Virus record (IMG/VR): IMGVR_UViG_3300009285_000739
Coordinates: 1-40,834 of that record
Source: a virus
Length of the DNA stretch: 40,834 nt
Reading direction: 5' to 3' (one strand)
A program made the position numbers and the translations under genes. The notes below the pieces were generated by a model that was not told where the DNA came from, searched no databases, and worked only from the letters and a program-made list of their open reading frames with translations. Of the stretch, positions 55 to 40,833 are shown piece after piece (the first letter of the stretch is position 1; each line of letters begins with the position of its first letter).

Positions 55-540
55 ATGAGAGGTAGACCGAGAAAACCTACAGCGCAGAAAATTTTAGAGG
101 GGAAACCTGGGCATCGGCCACTGCCAGAGAATGAACCTATGCCGGATCCCGTTAATCTTTTGCCTCATGCTCCAAAGGGGTTGAGATCGGAGTCGAGAAA
201 ATTTTGGCGGGAGGCTGGCGCCGACTTAATGCGATGTAAAACATTGAGCCGATTGGATGTTTTTGCGCTGGAGGAAATGGCCCGTATACATAGCATCAGG
301 CAGGACTATATAGAATTAGCTGCTCAGCAGCGTAAAAAGAGTGGGGTAGAAGCTAACCCTAAGGCGATTCAACGGGAGATCAGATACTGCAATCATGAAA
401 TACTATTGTATATGCGGGAGTTTGGAATGACTCCGGCGTCCCGGGCGCGAGTACAGATGGTCAAAGGGGAGATTGAGGGGGATGAAATGGAGAAGCTGCT
501 GGCGGAGAATAACAAGAAAGTGATTTCTATCGCGGGGTGA
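55..540 (+). CDS. terS: Terminase small subunit, P27-type
   Basis: Recognises phage DNA and hands it to the large terminase for packaging. The 161-aa product opens with the R-G-R-P-R-K-P-T-A and LEGKPGHRPLPE signature typical of P27-family small terminases, followed by a helical region rich in Arg and Glu. It lies 4 nt upstream of the large subunit, the usual order. A weak purine-rich SD (gggtggtg) precedes the ATG. Family membership is recognised from the N-terminal motif and the context; I am fairly sure. Confidence 0.88.
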   Translation: MRGRPRKPTAQKILEGKPGHRPLPENEPMPDPVNLLPHAPKGLRSESRKFWREAGADLMRCKTLSRLDVFALEEMARIHSIRQDYIELAAQQRKKSGVEANPKAIQREIRYCNHEILLYMREFGMTPASRARVQMVKGEIEGDEMEKLLAENNKKVISIAG

Positions 541-544
541 ATGA

Positions 545-2083
545 ATGTTTTGTCCGGAGTTGGCGGATCGGTATGTGAGATTCATTGAGCTTTTGAAATT
601 ATCGAGGGCGGAGTGGCGGGGTAAGCGAATGATTCTCCAACCGTGGCAGAAGGATCAATTGATTCGGCCATTGTTTGGGACTCTACGGGAGGATGGACTG
701 AGGCAATATCGGGAATGCTATATTGAGTTGCCACGGAAGAACACGAAGTCCGAGACGGTGGCGGCTCTTGGGGTAGCAGTGTTGTTTTTGGATCAGGAAC
801 CGGCGGCGGAGAATTATATCGCGGCGACAACGCGAGAGCAGACTCGACATGTTTTTCTTGCGGCAAAATACATGATTCAATCTAATCCATCTCTTGCGAG
901 TAAGTGCAAGATTATTGATTCTCAGAAGCGGATTATTCACGAACCAAGCGGGTCCTTCCTTCAGGGGATATCGGCGGACGAGGGAGGCCGGTGGGGCGAC
1001 CATACCCATACGATTATCTGTGATGAGTTTCATGCGTGGAGGAATGAGGAATATTTCAATGCGATGAGAAGTTCTCAAGGTGCGAGGCGTCAACCGCTGT
1101 TGTTGATCATAACGACGGCGGGGTATGATCGGCATTCGTTGTGTTGGAAATATCATCAGAAAGCCGAATTGGCGCTGCAACACCCGGAGGACTTCCTGGA
1201 TTTCCTTCCAGTTATTTATGGCCTTAAGGATAAAGAGGATTGGAAGGATGAATCGGTTTGGCATCGGGTGAATCCCATGTTGGGCATTTCGGTTAAGTTA
1301 GAGTTCCTCCGCAAGGAATTTCGAGAGGCGATTCAGAATCCGGCTTATGAGAATGTGTTTCGTCGGCTTTATCTGAATCAATGGACTGAGCAAGAGACGC
1401 GGGCATTCAGTATGGATACATGGGATGCTTGCGATTATGGGCCGATTGATCTGAATAGACTGAAATATAAAACCTGTTACGCCGGGCTGGACCTGGGTAG
1501 TGTTTCTGATTTGTCTGCTTTTGTTTTGTTATTCCCCCCGCAGGCGGGAATTGAGAAGTATATCATAGTTGCTTATTTCTGGATTCCTGATGAAGGGATG
1601 AGGGTACGGGTCCATCGGGACCAGGTTCCTTATGACCAATGGGTTGCTCAAGGATTGATTCAAACGACTCCTGGGAACGCGACGGATTATACTTTCATTC
1701 GCAAAATGATATCTGATTTGGCCGGGAAGTATAATCTGCGGGAGGTCGGGTATGATCGGCATGATGCTTTGCAGCTTGCTTCTGAATTGCAAATGAGCGG
1801 GATGAATATGATTCAGGTTCTTCAGAGTGCTGGAGGCATGGCGGGTCCGGTGGCGGATTTCATGAAGTTGTTATTGGGACATGAGTTTAGTCATGGGGGA
1901 AATCCGGTCCTGCGATGGATGGCGAGTAACACGGTGATGAGACAGGATTCGTACGGAAATCTCAGGCCGGACAAGGAAAAGAGCATGGAGAAGATTGACG
2001 GGATCACGGCGCTGTTGAATGCCGTTGATCGATGTATGAGGGTTCCTTCACTGGGAGAGCGCAGAAAGCTGAAGGTGATATGA
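545..2083 (+). CDS. terL: Terminase large subunit (ATPase/nuclease)
   Basis: Packaging motor, 512 aa. An N-terminal ATPase has a Walker A-like segment (ELPRKNTKSE, about residues 61-70; Thr stands where many relatives have Gly) and a Walker B region (HTIICDEFHAW). The C-terminal RNase H-like nuclease starts at YAGLDLGSVSDLSAF, continues through GYDRHDAL, and ends with a late acidic site in EKIDGITALLNAVDR. This is the HK97/P27-partner type, with length typical of the family. It directly follows TerS and its stop overlaps the next start (ATGA). Confidence 0.95.
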   Translation: MFCPELADRYVRFIELLKLSRAEWRGKRMILQPWQKDQLIRPLFGTLREDGLRQYRECYIELPRKNTKSETVAALGVAVLFLDQEPAAENYIAATTREQTRHVFLAAKYMIQSNPSLASKCKIIDSQKRIIHEPSGSFLQGISADEGGRWGDHTHTIICDEFHAWRNEEYFNAMRSSQGARRQPLLLIITTAGYDRHSLCWKYHQKAELALQHPEDFLDFLPVIYGLKDKEDWKDESVWHRVNPMLGISVKLEFLRKEFREAIQNPAYENVFRRLYLNQWTEQETRAFSMDTWDACDYGPIDLNRLKYKTCYAGLDLGSVSDLSAFVLLFPPQAGIEKYIIVAYFWIPDEGMRVRVHRDQVPYDQWVAQGLIQTTPGNATDYTFIRKMISDLAGKYNLREVGYDRHDALQLASELQMSGMNMIQVLQSAGGMAGPVADFMKLLLGHEFSHGGNPVLRWMASNTVMRQDSYGNLRPDKEKSMEKIDGITALLNAVDRCMRVPSLGERRKLKVI

Positions 2084-28096: not shown

Positions 28097-28419
28097 TGGA
28101 AACAGGCATTGACTTAACAAGTATTGGAGGAATTGCAGCGTTTACTTGGGTTTTCGTGGCTATCCTGGGCAGGCTCAAAGGCGCGCATCTGCTCAACCGG
28201 ATCGGAGAATTGGTTCAGGCGAATCAAGAATTGACTGCGCTGATTGTCGCGGTTGGGCTGGCTCTGATTATTAAGGGGACAAATTCCGGGTTCCCGGACT
28301 CAACGTGGATTCAGGTTGCAATCCAGGCAGTGACAGCGGCCATTGTCACAGGGTTCGCGCACGACAAAATTGTAAAGCCAGGCGAAAAAGCGGCCAATAA
28401 AATCATGGGGAAAGAATGA
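28096..28419 (+). CDS. Holin-like membrane protein
   Basis: 107 aa with three predicted membrane segments, about residues 9-25 (SIGGIAAFTWVFVAILG), 46-60 (LTALIVAVGLALIIK) and 70-86, and a charged C-terminus ending in KPGEKAANKIMGKE. Size and topology fit a class I holin. The enzyme partner is not adjacent; the only recognisable muramidase is 10 kb downstream (38336-38761). Confidence 0.55.
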   Translation: METGIDLTSIGGIAAFTWVFVAILGRLKGAHLLNRIGELVQANQELTALIVAVGLALIIKGTNSGFPDSTWIQVAIQAVTAAIVTGFAHDKIVKPGEKAANKIMGKE

Positions 28420-28907
28420 AACTCTCAGAGCTGAAACTCAATCCGGCAAATCCGCGATTCATTCGGGACAATGAATTTGCGAAGCTGAAAAAGTCTATTC
28501 AGCATTTCCCGCAAATGCTGCGGCTGCGGCCTATCGTCGTAGACGAGAATCAAGTCATCATTGGGGGAATGATGCGCTATCGCGCATTGCGCGACCTGGG
28601 GCACGAAGAGGTCCCGGACGAGTGGATCAAGCAGGAATGCGATTTTACCGAGGAACAGAAGCGGTACGATAGGTGTCTACTCCGAGACCTCCGGCCACTC
28701 GCGGCATATCAAATTCCAGTACGCCGCGTTGGGCTGGCAGCGGTTGCTCTCCCATCGCTGCCACTGAACCACCGTGGTTCCGATTGCTGTCGCCATCGCG
28801 CGCTGCGTGGACTGGCAGCGCTGGCGCAGTTGCTTCAGTCGTTCGCCGCGTGTCATTGGTTTTCTCCTGTTTTTATTATCCCCGGAGGAAGTGCTCTTAG
28901 GCAATGA
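28416..28907 (+). pseudogene. ParB/sulfiredoxin-like domain gene, truncated
   Basis: ATGA overlap with the holin-like gene. Residues 1-84 are a clear ParB N-terminal-like domain: LSELKLNPANPRFIRD, LKKSIQHFPQMLRLRPIVVD, VIIGGMMRYRALRDLG, FTEEQKRYD. In relatives this continues into IIKDNVGFG-type sequence; here from about 28668 the frame is simply the antisense of a minus-strand HTH gene and gives Arg/Leu-rich nonsense to 28907. Hence probably a truncated gene at a recombination joint, though the short domain may still fold. Confidence 0.7.
28677..28856 (-). CDS. Small XRE-like helix-turn-helix protein
   Basis: 59 aa. ATG at 28856 with SD aggag about 9 nt upstream; an in-frame start at 28967 has no such support. 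RGERLKQLRQRCQSTQRAM then AIGTTVVQWQRWESNRCQP is a typical HTH_XRE pattern (recognition helix TVVQWQRWE). Last gene of the minus-strand cassette. Its stop lies within 10 nt of where the ParB-like gene breaks. Likely a DNA-binding regulator. Confidence 0.65.
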   Translation of the reverse strand: MTRGERLKQLRQRCQSTQRAMATAIGTTVVQWQRWESNRCQPNAAYWNLICREWPEVSE

Positions 28908-29103
28908 ATCCCCAATGCCTAAGCTTCCGCGCTTGAATCTGCGCGGTCTCCCGCTGAGATATCCCACAGAAGGAACACCGTATTCCAGTGTGGGAATAAT
29001 GGTCGTTGGCGCAATGCCAACGACCTGCCCTGTTTTCCTCTCCCCGATAATTATCAGGGAGAGAATCCGCTTTATCTATCAAAGATCGAAAAACTTCTTC
29101 CAT
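28897..29103 (-). CDS. Small zinc-finger-like protein
   Basis: 68 aa from ATG 29103, chosen for a strong SD (gggaggt, about 8 nt away); ATG 29124 with its own purine-rich SD would add 7 residues. Acidic helix at the N-terminus (MEEVFRSLIDKADSLP), then a metal-site pattern C-x3-H-x2-H...C-x2-C (HCANDHYSHTGIRCSFCG). Basic tail. Function unknown. Confidence 0.6.
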   Translation of the reverse strand: MEEVFRSLIDKADSLPDNYRGEENRAGRWHCANDHYSHTGIRCSFCGISQRETAQIQARKLRHWGFIA

Positions 29104-29151
29104 TGTTTCTACCTCCCTATTCATTTTCTCCCCGAAGGGACTTCTGCAATC

Positions 29152-29182
29152 CCGCCGCCCCGGAGTCGGACCGGGGCGGCGG
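29152..29182 (-). terminator. GC-rich 12-bp hairpin between minus-strand genes
   Basis: CCGCCGCCCCGG (29152-29163) and CCGGGGCGGCGG (29171-29182) pair perfectly around a 7-nt loop. On the minus strand it follows the stop of the 89-aa gene (29198) by 15 nt and precedes the zinc-finger gene. No U-run follows, so it may be an attenuator or mRNA-stability hairpin rather than a full terminator. Confidence 0.55.
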
Positions 29183-29197
29183 CGATCTGGCGGGGGA

Positions 29198-29467
29198 CTA
29201 ATTGATTTTCCGAGCGGGGGCAACAACCCCGCCACGCCCAGGGCGACTAAATGCCGCATATTTCCGATCCGCGATTGCCCGGGCAATCGCATCGGCATCC
29301 GCCCGGGATACTATTTCGGATTCAATCGAAAATCCGCCCGGCTCGCTCCCCGCAAAATTGCGGAATTCATATTCCGTGCCGGGGATGATTTCCTGGGAAA
29401 ATGGGAATTGCAGCAATAATGCTGCCCGGAAATCTGTTCGCCGATTAATCCGTATTTGATCTCTCAT
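29198..29467 (-). CDS. Hypothetical 89-aa basic protein
   Basis: ATG 29467 has SD gaggag; the longer frame from 29524 lacks support. Sequence: RDQIRINRRTDFRAALLL, EIIPGTEYEFRNF, a helix with DADAIARAIADRKYAAF and a Gly/Arg-rich end. Not recognised. GC-richer than the neighbouring + strand genes. Second gene of the cassette. Confidence 0.6.
   Translation of the reverse strand: MRDQIRINRRTDFRAALLLQFPFSQEIIPGTEYEFRNFAGSEPGGFSIESEIVSRADADAIARAIADRKYAAFSRPGRGGVVAPARKIN

Positions 29468-34277: not shown

Positions 34278-34294
<17 letters not shown>
33965..34294 (+). pseudogene. HNH endonuclease interrupted by an amber codon
   Basis: From ATG 33965 the frame reads MTYQEQLINPQ-stop-QKKRLEIMERDQWKCRRCG. 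Relatives usually have Trp at the stop position, so TGG to TAG (33998-34000) is the simplest change. The second part can start at ATG 34022 and still contains the complete HNH-like core: CRRCG, LTVHHGYYSKGKKLWDYP, LCKYCHEE. So a functional 90-aa product is possible, but no SD is seen there. AT-rich. Confidence 0.65.
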
Positions 34295-35443
<1,149 letters not shown>

Positions 35444-35447
<4 letters not shown>

Positions 35448-36820
35448 CCGAACGAATATTTCCTCATAACCCAGATGTTGAGCGGGCCATTATTGCGGCA
35501 ATGGTGATGGATGCTGAAGCATTGCAGGTTGGACTGCATCGGCTTAGCGCGATGGACTTTTATTCACCGTCCCACCAGAAAATATTCGAGGCCATTCAAT
35601 TACTTGAGACAGAGGGGTCAGTGGTTGATTTGACGTTGTTGTCTGAACGATTGAGGATGAATGGGGTTTTGGAGCAGGTGGGAGGTGTGCCCTCTCTCGC
35701 GGGAATACTCCAATCGGCAGCGACTTCTGCGAATATCGAATATCACATTGGCATACTCAAAGAAAAATCGGGTTACCAGGAAATCATTCGGCAGGGGACG
35801 CGCGCTGTGGATCGAGCGTTTGCGGAAGAGGATAAGCCCTCAGAGATATTCCGGGCGCTCTCTGATTCGCTTATTAACGTTTCGCTGAATGGCCAGGCAG
35901 AGCAGATGAAACCCATTGGGGATTATCTGGGTGCGGTGCTGGAAGAGATTGAATTAGGCCGCAAGTCGAAAACGTTTCTCTATGGGGTTGAGTCCGGGAT
36001 CGTTCCGTTGGATTATTACATTGGGGGATTTCCTGCGGGGGACCTGTCGATTATCGCGGCGCGGACGGGGATTGGAAAAACGGTTCTTGCGAATCAGATC
36101 GCAGAGAACATGACCCGTGTGGGCAAGCGCGTTTGCTTTTTCCCGCTGGAGATGAACCGAAAGCGGATGATGATGCGACTGCTGACGCAAGCGTCGGGTA
36201 TTTCAACGTCTCATCGGGGATTGAAGTACATGACTGATGAGGACTATCAGAGGATCGTTGCGGCGGCGAATAATATTTCTGATTTCCCATTGTTCTATTA
36301 CGATGGGACGATCACTCTGTCTGGCCTATTGTCGTACGTGAAGCTCATGCACAAGCGATTCCCGATTGACGCGGTTATCGTAGACTACTTGCAACTTGTG
36401 GGAGTGCCGGTTTCTCAGAGGACCAGGGAGAATGATGTTTCTAATATTTCGCGGGGGCTGAAAAATTTATCGCGCGAAATGGATATCCCGGTGATTGCGC
36501 TTTCTCAATTTTCGCGACGGGCGGATGATGATCGAGAACCGCGAATGTCAGACCTCCGAGAGAGTGGCGCGATTGAGCAGGACGCTGGGTTGATTGTTTT
36601 TATTCATCGGAAGGCGCAGAAAAAAAACGAGGAGGGGGACTCAGTCCTTGAGGACGAAACGAAAATCAGTGTGGTGAAATACCGGCACGGTTCAACGGGA
36701 TCATTCCGAGCGAAATTCAACAAGACCTATCTGCGCTTTGATCCAGTGGATGACTGGCACAAAGAAGCGCCGCCGGATTATCAGGATAAAGTCGGAGTGC
36801 AGGATGATCTCCCATTCTAG
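35444..36820 (+). CDS. dnaB: Replicative DNA helicase, DnaB family
   Basis: 458 aa. N-terminal DnaB domain (NPDVERAIIAAMVMD, MDFYSPSHQKIFEAI, GGVPSLAGIL), then a RecA-like core: Walker A ARTGIGKT, Walker B IDAVIVDYLQL, VIALSQFSR (H3), SDLRESGAIEQDAG and the arginine-finger region KYRHGSTGSF. Unwinds phage DNA at the fork with the initiator encoded just upstream (ATGA overlap). An A8 run (36620-36627) lies in the C-terminal third. Confidence 0.93.
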
Positions 36821-38162: not shown

Positions 38163-38358
38163 CTTCACAGAAAAACCGATATGCCCGAAGTGCAGAAACC
38201 AAAACTTCTACTGGCGGATGGTTTATGAGATTGATCCGAAGCCCACATCTTATGAGGGGGATTATCTTTCCCTTCAGTGCCTTCGGTGTGGCCATGTTTT
38301 GAAAATGAAGCCCGCCGATGTGGAGAATGAAGCGAATGAACCTACAGACATTTCTTGA
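38155..38358 (+). CDS. Small zinc-ribbon protein
   Basis: 67 aa from ATG 38155 with SD aggagat. Two CxxC knuckles (CPKCRNQNFYW and CLRCGHVL) separated by a beta stretch, a typical zinc ribbon. Possibly transcription- or replication-related. Overlaps the lysozyme start. Confidence 0.55.
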   Translation: MIDFTEKPICPKCRNQNFYWRMVYEIDPKPTSYEGDYLSLQCLRCGHVLKMKPADVENEANEPTDIS

Positions 38359-38761
38359 GCGGATGGAAGGCCGTAAGAGTACTATCTACTACGTGGATGG
38401 AGTCCCACACATCGGCATTGGGCACAATATCAATGAGCCGATTAGCGAGCGTTCCATTGATGAAATTTATCTGGATGATGTGAAGCGGGTTTATGATGAT
38501 CTTTCGCATGTATTTTCTCGCGGCTGGTACTGGGCTATTGGAATTAATCGAGAGAACGCACTGGTTTCAATTATGTTCACTCTGGGGCTTCCGCGATTTA
38601 TGGGCTTTGAGAAAATGATCGATGCAATCAAAGCCCACGACTGGCCATTGGCGGCAAAGGAATTGCTTGACTCAGATCGAGGACGAGAATTGCCGGAGCG
38701 CAGTGCGGTGGAGGCGTACATGCTGGAGCATAATGCGATGCCGGAAGGATGGGAGGAGTAA
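38336..38761 (+). CDS. GH24 lysozyme (T4 lysozyme-like), atypical active site
   Basis: 141 aa. N-terminal catalytic signature: LERMEGRKSTIYYVDGVPHIG then IGHNI. Glu11 corresponds to T4 lysozyme Glu11, Asp21 to Asp20, and His25 stands where T4 has Thr26. The rest follows the family (ALVSIMFTLGLPRFMGFEKM, AIKAHDWPLAAKELLDS). Cleaves peptidoglycan at lysis. It lies 10 kb from the holin-like gene, inside the replication region, so lysis genes are split. No signal peptide. Confidence 0.75.
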   Translation: MNLQTFLERMEGRKSTIYYVDGVPHIGIGHNINEPISERSIDEIYLDDVKRVYDDLSHVFSRGWYWAIGINRENALVSIMFTLGLPRFMGFEKMIDAIKAHDWPLAAKELLDSDRGRELPERSAVEAYMLEHNAMPEGWEE

Positions 38762-39207: not shown

Positions 39208-39335
39208 TGAGAATTTCTACAAACCTCGTTTTTGCCACGATACAGTTCCAAGGCTCAACGTTTGAGCCTCTCGGTGGGGGTAAGCTAGGGGTTCGCGAAA
39301 TTGAAACGCTTCAATGGGGTAAAATAGCACTATGA
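39207..39335 (+). CDS. Candidate 42-aa peptide with internal hairpin
   Basis: Coupled at both ends: start in TAATG with the previous gene, stop in ATGA with the VRR-NUC gene. Reads MRISTNLVFATIQFQGSTFE, then a Gly-rich turn and VREIETLQWGKIAL. The DNA holds a perfect 8-bp hairpin AGGCTCAA/TTGAGCCT (39251-39269) with a 3-nt loop, which may slow translation or act as an attenuator. Confidence 0.5.
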   Translation: MRISTNLVFATIQFQGSTFEPLGGGKLGVREIETLQWGKIAL

Positions 39336-39667
39336 AAACGAGAGAATCCGGGATGTATACTCCGATTCTGGAGTATCTCAGACTTCGGGGCGTCCGGGCC
39401 TGGCGAAATAATACCGGCGCGGTAGAGCGAGAGTACAAAGGCAAAAAGCGATTCATCCGGTTCGGCTATCCGGGTATGAGTGACATTGTTGGGATACTCC
39501 CGGGTGGCCGATTCTTGGCGATTGAGGTCAAGCGGGAGGGAGAGAAGCCAACTCCTAAACAACAGGTATTTCTCGCAATGGTGAACGGCGCTGGTGGACT
39601 GGGATTCGTGGCGCATGAAGTTTCCGATGTGATTTTTGTGCTGGAGAAAATGTTCAGGGCGGTTTAA
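39332..39667 (+). CDS. VRR-NUC nuclease
   Basis: 111 aa. Typical VRR-NUC: EYLRLRGVRAWRNNTGAV, GYPGMSDIVGILPGGRFLAI, EVKREGEKPTPKQQVFL. Active-site acidic residues are the Asp in MSDI and the Glu/Lys in IEVKR. PD-(D/E)XK-type nuclease used in phage DNA processing or recombination. ATG overlaps the previous stop (ATGA). Confidence 0.85.
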   Translation: MKTRESGMYTPILEYLRLRGVRAWRNNTGAVEREYKGKKRFIRFGYPGMSDIVGILPGGRFLAIEVKREGEKPTPKQQVFLAMVNGAGGLGFVAHEVSDVIFVLEKMFRAV

Positions 39668-39690: not shown

Positions 39691-40057
39691 ATGAGTAAAA
39701 CACCAATACCGGATCTGGCAAGCGAGGGAAATTATCCGGGTCACCGTAAACATCATCCCCAATGTCAAAGAGCCGGTTTCGGTTTTTGTCTCGCTGGTGG
39801 ATGACCGCACTGAGCCGGGTGGCGGGTATCGCAGAATGACCGATGTTCTCTCCGATGAGAAACTGACAGCGCGGTTATTGGATCAGGCATTAACAGAGTT
39901 AAAAGCGTTGCAGCGCAAATACAAAATGATCCAGGCATTGATCCCCGTATTCCGGCAAGCCGAAAAGCTGCGATTGCAAATTGAGAAGCAGAAACAAAAG
40001 TCAAAGCATTGGCCGATTATTCCGAAGCGCGGTCCGGACTTATCGGCAACGACTTGA
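39691..40057 (+). pseudogene. Small coiled-coil gene with apparent +1 frameshift
   Basis: ATG 39691 with SD aaaggag reads MSKTPIPDLAS and then unconvincing residues to a stop at 39802. One frame over, the sequence is open from 39695 to 40057 and reads protein-like from about 39719: REIIRVTVNIIPNVKEPVSV, then FVSLVDDRTEPGGGYRR and a long coiled coil. No ATG starts that frame early. One extra base near 39715-39740 explains both, giving about 121 aa. Confidence 0.6.
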
Positions 40058-40058
40058 A

Positions 40059-40183
40059 GTATCTGACAAGGTGTGGCTTGATGTGGTACGGGAAGATGCG
40101 GTCTGGCGGGGTTTGGTATGGCGACGCAGGTAGGTGGTATCTGACATGGCCCGGCGAGTAAGGCGAGGCGAGGTCCGGCGGGG
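40059..40183 (+). repeat. GG-every-5-nt array in two units, each headed by GTATCTGACA
   Basis: GTATCTGACA occurs at 40059-40068 and 40137-40146. Each is followed, after 1 nt, by GG (40070; 40148). GG then recurs with a strict 5-nt period: 40070, 75, (80 G-A), 85, 90, (95 G-A), 100, 105, 110, 115, 120; and 40148, 153, (158 G-T), then 162, 167, 172, 177, 182. No gene occupies the stretch on either strand that I would accept. Confidence 0.75.
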
Positions 40184-40219
40184 TAATGATACTTCGCGTA
40201 AAGGAAGGAGGAAAGTCGA

Positions 40220-40438
40220 ATGACGAAGAAAAATAGCAATGTGCCACCACCTGATATCAGCAAGAAGCCGCCTGCTCCAGTGGGGCCACCATCCCCGTAC
40301 AGAATAATAGATTGTACATTTCCCTGTGAGTATGGCAGAATTCAAATCAGGATCGATAATGATGGGGCAACGATTGATCTATTCCCCAATGAGGGAAAGA
40401 CAACGCTTCCACATCAAGAGAAGAGAACGTATCTCTAA
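40220..40438 (+). CDS. Hypothetical protein
   Basis: 72 aa, strong SD ggaagga. Pro-rich N-terminus (NVPPPDISKKPPAPVGPPSP) and a beta C-terminus. Ends in TAATG overlap with the HNH gene. Not recognised. Confidence 0.5.
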   Translation: MTKKNSNVPPPDISKKPPAPVGPPSPYRIIDCTFPCEYGRIQIRIDNDGATIDLFPNEGKTTLPHQEKRTYL

Positions 40439-40833
40439 TGCCGTACATGCGAACCCATAAAGCTTGTATCACTCACGGATGCTCTGGAACTGCCATTCGA
40501 GGATTTTACTGCGATGAGTGCTATTCGATTCAATCTGCAATGAAGGCTCAATCTGAATTGCGCAGGCCCAAACAATTGTATCGGAAAACAGCAGAGCGAG
40601 GATATGATGCGCGTTGGCAACGATACTCAAAGAGATACCTGGTACTAAATCCATATTGTTGCAAGTGTGGGGATCGATCAACCAAAACAGATCATATTAT
40701 TCCGCACAAGGGACCTGGAGACCCCAACTTTTGGAATCCACTCAATCATCAACCGATGTGCGCGAGGTGTCACGGGCGCAAGAGTGGGCGAGAAGGGGGT
40801 AGGGGGGTGAAATCCTTTAGGGATAAACCCTGA
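40438..40833 (+). CDS. HNH endonuclease (terminase-linked type)
   Basis: 131 aa. N-terminal Cys knuckle (CITHGCSG, FYCDECYS), then the HNH core: LVLNPYCCKCGDRSTKTDHI, IPHKGPGDPNFWNPLNHQP, MCARCHGRKSGREGG. Such HNH proteins lie next to the terminase genes in HK97-like phages and aid packaging cleavage. The stop is the last codon before the window end, which together with TerS at the window start suggests a circular join. Lys/Arg-rich C-terminus. Confidence 0.85.
   Translation: MPYMRTHKACITHGCSGTAIRGFYCDECYSIQSAMKAQSELRRPKQLYRKTAERGYDARWQRYSKRYLVLNPYCCKCGDRSTKTDHIIPHKGPGDPNFWNPLNHQPMCARCHGRKSGREGGRGVKSFRDKP

Follow-up and report, generated by a model that had tools for sequence, protein, structure and literature searches.

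What kind of element is a noncoding tract in which GG dinucleotides recur every five nucleotides? Such a tract lies near the right end of the virus record IMGVR_UViG_3300009285_000739 (40,834 bases, classed as linear), the whole of which was analysed here and is referred to below as the window. The original prediction had described two strictly phased units, each opened by the same 10-mer, which neither protein coding nor any known phage control site would explain. Our analysis indicates that the periodicity is real and that the tract is, judging by its sequence features, probably a guide array of the vrRNA type, the kind that characterizes the VIPR systems of phages.

A pentameric array near the end of a phage contig

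The segment 40059-40186 carries the strongest GG period-5 signal of the entire contig. Within 40059-40195 there are 11 GG pairs at a distance of 5, 8 at a distance of 10 and 9 at a distance of 15, with 1-5 pairs at each of the other lags up to 14. Autocorrelation against dinucleotide shuffles, the check that had been proposed, establishes that the array is real: the shuffles of this segment average 3.9 lag-5 pairs and none of 5000 reaches 11, while 17 of 5000 reach 11 if the best lag from 3 to 15 is allowed for each shuffle. In the rest of the contig the lag-5 count attains at most 7 per 127 nt, the genome mean being 0.8. A GGYNN profile of 12 pentamers scores 27.7-28.0 bits at the array, and the highest score in 450 Markov-simulated genomes of 40.8 kb (order 1, 3 or 5; both strands) is 22.6 bits.

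The pentamers decode as a GGY triplet followed by two variable bases (NN). Block 1 (Table 1) keeps a single phase across its 12 pentamers, eight of which have a perfect GGY triplet and four an imperfect one (GAT, GGG, GAT and CGC); 10 of its 12 NN letter pairs are distinct. The shorter block 2 slips by 1 nt at 40158-40161 and is not in phase with block 1; its profile score of 16.4 bits is the second best in the contig. The phasing that had been called strict is thus found in the single phase of block 1, but not in its four imperfect triplets, nor across the slip in block 2, nor between the two blocks. The shared 10-mer is present as described: GTATCTGACA forms an exact direct repeat with a spacing of 78, and the 13-mer around both copies aligns with one mismatch.

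Table 1. Coordinates of the array and of the genes discussed in the text
Feature	Position	Strand	Remarks
Noncoding gap holding the array	40058..40219	+	162 nt; between the ORF ending at 40057 and the RBS/start of the ORF at 40220
Leader GTATCTGACA, copy 1	40059..40068	+	Exact direct repeat of 40137-40146; precedes block 1
Possible weaker extra unit GAC-AA	40065	+	Ahead of block 1
Repeat block 1, vrRNA-like	40070..40129	+	12 pentamers; 28.0 bits, profile start 40065
Block 1 pentamers			GGT-GT GGC-TT GAT-GT GGT-AC GGG-AA GAT-GC GGT-CT GGC-GG GGT-TT GGT-AT GGC-GA CGC-AG
Block 1 guide letters (NN), predicted			GT TT GT AC AA GC CT GG TT AT GA AG
Leader GTATCTGACA, copy 2	40137..40146	+	Precedes block 2
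Repeat block 2, vrRNA-like, short	40148..40186	+	7 perfect GGY units, 1-nt slip
Block 2 units			GGC-CC GGC-GA GTAA GGC-GA GGC-GA GGT-CC GGC-GG GGT-AA
8-bp stem-loop GCGGGGTA-ATGA-TACTTCGC	40178..40197	+	At the 3' end of block 2; weak candidate for a tail
72-aa ORF	starts 40220	+	Downstream of array
HNH gene	40438-40833	+	After the 72-aa ORF
VRR-NUC nuclease gene	39332..39667	+	Pfam PF08774 above cut-off; ~400 nt upstream of array
DnaD-like loader and DnaB	34278-36820		Early-gene region carrying the array
Lysozyme	38318-38761		Early-gene region carrying the array
TerS	55-540		Opposite contig end from array
TerL	545-2083		Opposite contig end from array

Several familiar explanations were set aside. 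Coding is rejected on the 5-nt period and the noncoding location, in agreement with the earlier view that no 3-nt code lies behind the pattern. Tandem Repeats Finder does not report the array, and the diversity of the NN letters, in block 1 as in the other arrays described below, argues against a plain microsatellite. A CRISPR array is excluded by the lack of near-identical repeats with unique spacers, only a 10-mer recurring, and that twice; the array has no match in Rfam, to a CRISPR family or any other. TRAP-binding sites consist of (G/U)AG triplets with 2-3-nt spacers, and they resemble the array in combining a triplet with a short spacer at a pitch of nearly 5 nt, which a repeating protein reads; however, the triplets of the array are GGY, GAT, GGG or CGC, not (G/U)AG, and we know of no TRAP here. 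RNA folding of the whole array region is no better than that of shuffles (z=-0.25), which speaks against the G-rich RNA structure offered earlier as a possible role. The hairpin at the end of block 2 taken alone reaches -9.7 kcal/mol (z=-3.2), but was picked after viewing the fold; in a 56-nt context it is not significant (z=-0.58), and block 1 has no such hairpin.

The gap contains no terminator and no promoter-like site, and its neighboring genes are all on the + strand, in the same direction as the array. The array had been placed between a small gene and the HNH and terminase genes; the small gene and the HNH gene do lie on its two sides, the latter beyond the 72-aa ORF, but TerS and TerL are at the other end of the contig. 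The small ORF immediately upstream (39691-40057) has a good RBS and an ATG at 39691, and its open frame, 39695-40054, is in a different frame from that ATG, an apparent frameshift near the start that is either an assembly error or real; its protein is predicted to form a long helix. Relatives were found for neither of the ORFs flanking the array. One base separates the HNH stop codon from the right contig end, TerS starts at 55, and a second contig of 9,275 bases (L361) encodes a 100% identical TerL that is equally far from the left end of that contig; taken together, these positions suggest that the contig is near complete, and its ends may be the natural ones of the genome, falling between HNH and TerS. 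The closest terminases (44-46% identity) are found in phages of Lachnospiraceae and other Clostridia. No segment of array strength is present in the contigs of the TerL relatives (L361-L370), in which the top score is 10.6 bits.

GGYNN arrays and their association with Vipr

VIPR (Viral Interference Programmable Repeat), as first described in a preprint in 2026 (PMC13142463), is an RNA-guided DNA-binding relative, and possible ancestor, of CRISPR in phages. It consists of Vipr, a RAMP protein carried by the phage, together with an accessory vap and guide RNAs (vrRNAs) with a 3' tail. According to the same preprint, vrRNAs are defined by 9-16 tandem GGY/NN (YNNGG) pentamers with hypervariable NN letters and an invariable, structured 3' tail; the NN letters skip one base as they read double-stranded DNA, whereby competing phages are repressed; Vipr proteins fall into seven types of high sequence diversity; and the arrays of SUSP1 are expressed (PMC13142463). 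Given this account of GGY/NN arrays as VIPR guide RNAs, the assertion that no known phage control site fits the pattern is out of date.

The link between such arrays and Vipr can be established independently. We scanned IMG/VR with six GGYNN pentamers followed by GG, a choice made on repetition alone, and obtained at least 120 loci, in which the NN positions use all 16 dinucleotides and the GGY periodicity runs on past the searched core; the constraint is on the triplet and the 5-nt pitch only. Loci from a period-7 pattern scan (119 of the matches listed) served as the control, and the two sets were compared by their Vipr content only, not by locus counts. In the SUSP1 genome (KT454805) four such arrays occupy noncoding gaps at about 27.5-28.0 kb and 29.1-29.5 kb, and a 195-aa protein encoded between them matches PDB 36pp, 'SUSP1 Vipr protein', over its full length; it falls in phrog_4652, a family without annotation. 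An iterated profile search seeded with this protein, which reaches members at 10-20% identity to it, detected a Vipr homologue in 75 of 120 period-5 loci versus 1 of 119 period-7 loci among the matches listed. Of 1042 matches, 1035 have the array on the strand of vipr, and the median distance between the two is 195 nt. The difference in Vipr content, the shared strand and the short distance together show that in viral contigs the GGYNN array marks VIPR. The suggestion that the pattern be sought in other phages has accordingly proved fruitful, and the scan provides a simple finder of new VIPR loci among viral sequences.

The sole Vipr among the control loci listed (L207:4753-5397) belongs to a VIPR locus with GG-rich arrays that was caught by chance. 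A scan of bacterial genomes for 11 repeats found Vipr in only 5 of 119 loci, which implies that most of the long GGYNN runs in cellular genomes are of another kind, or belong to VIPR types that the profile misses. In a set of 14 control genomes, phrog_4652, the Vipr family, gave a signal in Caulobacter vibrioides and Thermotoga maritima, which comes either from a Vipr, of the cell or of a prophage, or from cross-matching CRISPR RAMP proteins. A BLAST search of a long array against INPHARED returned nothing useful, probably on account of the low-complexity query. In five loci (L033, L118, L004, L014 and L027) the repeat tracts alternate with recurring hairpin-like spacers, one of which is shared by L033 and L118; these spacers are probably structured vrRNA tails.

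How does the array of the window compare with these? Block 1, at 28.0 bits, is within the span of scores of the four arrays of SUSP1 (35.3, 29.3, 22.4 and 20.9 bits). The 95th percentile of the control-locus maxima is 16.8 bits, and only one of the 119 reaches the score of the window, presumably the Vipr-bearing L207. Like the SUSP1 vrRNA arrays, it is built of GGY and two variable bases at a 5-nt pitch, has more than one tract at the locus and a conserved sequence ahead of each tract, and is noncoding, phage-borne and oriented in the operon direction. The 12 units of block 1 are within the published length range and the 7 of block 2 below it; the NN letters of block 1 show the hypervariability expected of vrRNAs, and the intergenic gap runs in the direction of the neighboring genes. 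As the SUSP1 vrRNAs likewise have imperfect triplets and a conserved pre-tract sequence, neither the imperfect units nor the 10-mer leader of the window are odd. Unlike SUSP1, however, the window genome has no recognizable vipr or vap, its second tract is short, no target is matched, and a structured 3' tail common to both blocks is lacking, the one candidate being the contextually weak hairpin behind block 2. The nearby VRR-NUC gene gains no support as a vap accessory, such genes being found beside 14 of 120 arrays and 9 of 119 control loci among those listed (p=0.38).

The missing Vipr and alternative explanations

Vipr was detected neither among all the window ORFs by iterated HMM search, nor in the record by a 30-member alignment or by phrog_4652, nor among the 148 window ORFs by hhalign, in a setting in which weak true Vipr members, themselves part of the profile, scored at least 99%. 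The best hhalign value, 6.5%, fell on the upstream ORF, which was rejected as a mini-Vipr on this score and its long predicted helix. As vipr is not recognizable in this phage, we call the array an 'orphan'. It has counterparts: 36 other array records lacked Vipr at the fetched locus, 6 of which have Vipr or a fragment of it elsewhere and 30 none. Comparing loci with diverse NN letters and at least 2 kb on each side, we found solitary arrays in 10 of 15 Vipr-less versus 3 of 31 Vipr-positive loci among the matches listed (p=1.4e-4). Solitary arrays of other phages, with no Vipr detected, are found in L023, L030, L035, L038, L039, L065, L070, L075, L107 and L117; the array of L065 is just upstream of recT, and that of L023 is between Sak4/SSB-like and HNH genes. 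The array of the window belongs either to this recurrent orphan class or to VIPR types whose Vipr is invisible to the profile. That such arrays recur without Vipr, and mostly alone, suggests an ability of vrRNAs to move or act apart from their protein. The main text of the preprint makes no mention of arrays in Vipr-less genomes, and the words 'orphan' and 'decoy' are absent from it (PMC13142463).

The most likely interpretation is a guide array that needs an external Vipr, or else the relic of a lost locus. That it works in trans with the Vipr of another element is a possibility that we favor only tentatively. Somewhat less probable is a decaying remnant that does nothing, a full VIPR locus having lost vipr and its array being in the course of degeneration; the imperfect third of block 1, the slip and low unit number of block 2, the lack of a tail common to the blocks, the absence of a detectable Vipr in the window and the apparent frameshift directly upstream are all in keeping with such decay. 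Nevertheless, imperfect units occur as well in the SUSP1 arrays, which the preprint reports as expressed and two of which (22.4 and 20.9 bits) have lower scores than block 1, and the leader GTATCTGACA has stayed identical in its two copies. An ordinary VIPR locus with a Vipr too divergent for the profile, or encoded beyond the contig, appears quite unlikely: the diversity of the seven published types (PMC13142463), the linear record and the 30 of 36 comparable records equally devoid of a match leave room for it, but the reach of the profile to 10-20% identity and the poor best hhalign value argue against a missed protein, and the positions of the HNH and TerS genes, with the same first base in L361, suggest that little sequence is missing.

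It is also conceivable, though distinctly improbable, that the array is an RNA decoy, a look-alike of vrRNA that would tie up the Vipr belonging to a rival, be it phage, satellite or host, in the way that RNA anti-CRISPRs engage Cas proteins. This idea draws on the recurrence of mostly solitary Vipr-less arrays, which recalls the RNA anti-CRISPRs (Racrs), solitary repeat units that mimic the repeat of a Cas system (PMC10651486). The resemblance, a repeat-unit mimic carried by a phage that lacks the corresponding protein, is by analogy only. The array of the window has no CRISPR repeat, its diverse guide letters may simply encode targets, and other Vipr types may have escaped the search. The broader conjecture that solitary vrRNA-like RNAs of Vipr-less phages might capture the Vipr of a rival, whether as trans guides or as decoys, is speculative and on balance unlikely, but if true it would amount to a hijack by RNA alone, or an 'anti-VIPR' that parallels the RNA anti-CRISPRs. 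Finally, we doubt that the array is unrelated to vrRNA, being a product of chance or another G-rich signal such as a single-strand-protein landing site, a recombination or packaging signal, a ribosome-binding decoy or a structured element. The want of a Vipr, a target match and close relatives would agree with this, as would the ten of the 120 period-5 loci listed that consist of simple repeats or show little NN diversity. Yet the score exceeds those of all the simulated genomes and is matched by a single control locus, and the region shows no fold signal. Nor are recombination-type genes clearly enriched: ERF, Sak4, YqaJ, DUF669 and VRR-NUC are no more frequent beside arrays than at period-7 loci, against the proposed recombination or landing role, while RecT occurs beside 8 arrays and 1 control locus among those listed (uncorrected p 0.036). 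The packaging-signal and ribosome-binding-decoy roles gained no support.

Proposed mode of action and accompanying features

If the array is a vrRNA-type guide, an RNA would be produced from the + strand, in the operon direction, with one tract of about 12 pentamers and another of about 7; in these pentamers the GGY triplets would act as a protein-bound scaffold and the NN pairs as guide letters. A Vipr protein would bind this RNA along the repeats, and, following the published rule, the NN pairs would read double-stranded DNA as xNN xNN. The Vipr would have to be supplied in trans by the host, a prophage or a co-infecting element. The array would be expected to have a target: block 1 would specify GTnTTnGTnACnAAnGCnCTnGGnTTnATnGAnAG and repress transcription there in a competing element. 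Written out by the rule of one skipped nucleotide, the predicted target of block 1 is GTnTTnGTnACnAAnGCnCTnGGnTTnATnGA(nAG). Its 22 bases have no exact match in the viral contigs and no match within 3 mismatches inside the window. A search on the 16 bases specified by the perfect-GGY units gave 18 loci, the best agreeing at 20 of 22 bases and lying in a recurrent gene family; this is about what the 16-base selection and chance give.

Two further features of the contig deserve mention. A truncated-looking ORF of the ParB/nuclease type (28416-28907, + strand) overlaps an ORF for an XRE-type regulator (28677-28967, - strand), and the region 28416-29298 is possibly a lysogeny-control or broken region. 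Within the DnaD-like gene (34278-35447), perfect tandem repeats of AAGCCCCTCCG (3.5 copies) and CAGGAG (7.5 copies) stand back to back at 34692-34773 and encode a Pro-rich followed by a Gly-Ala linker.
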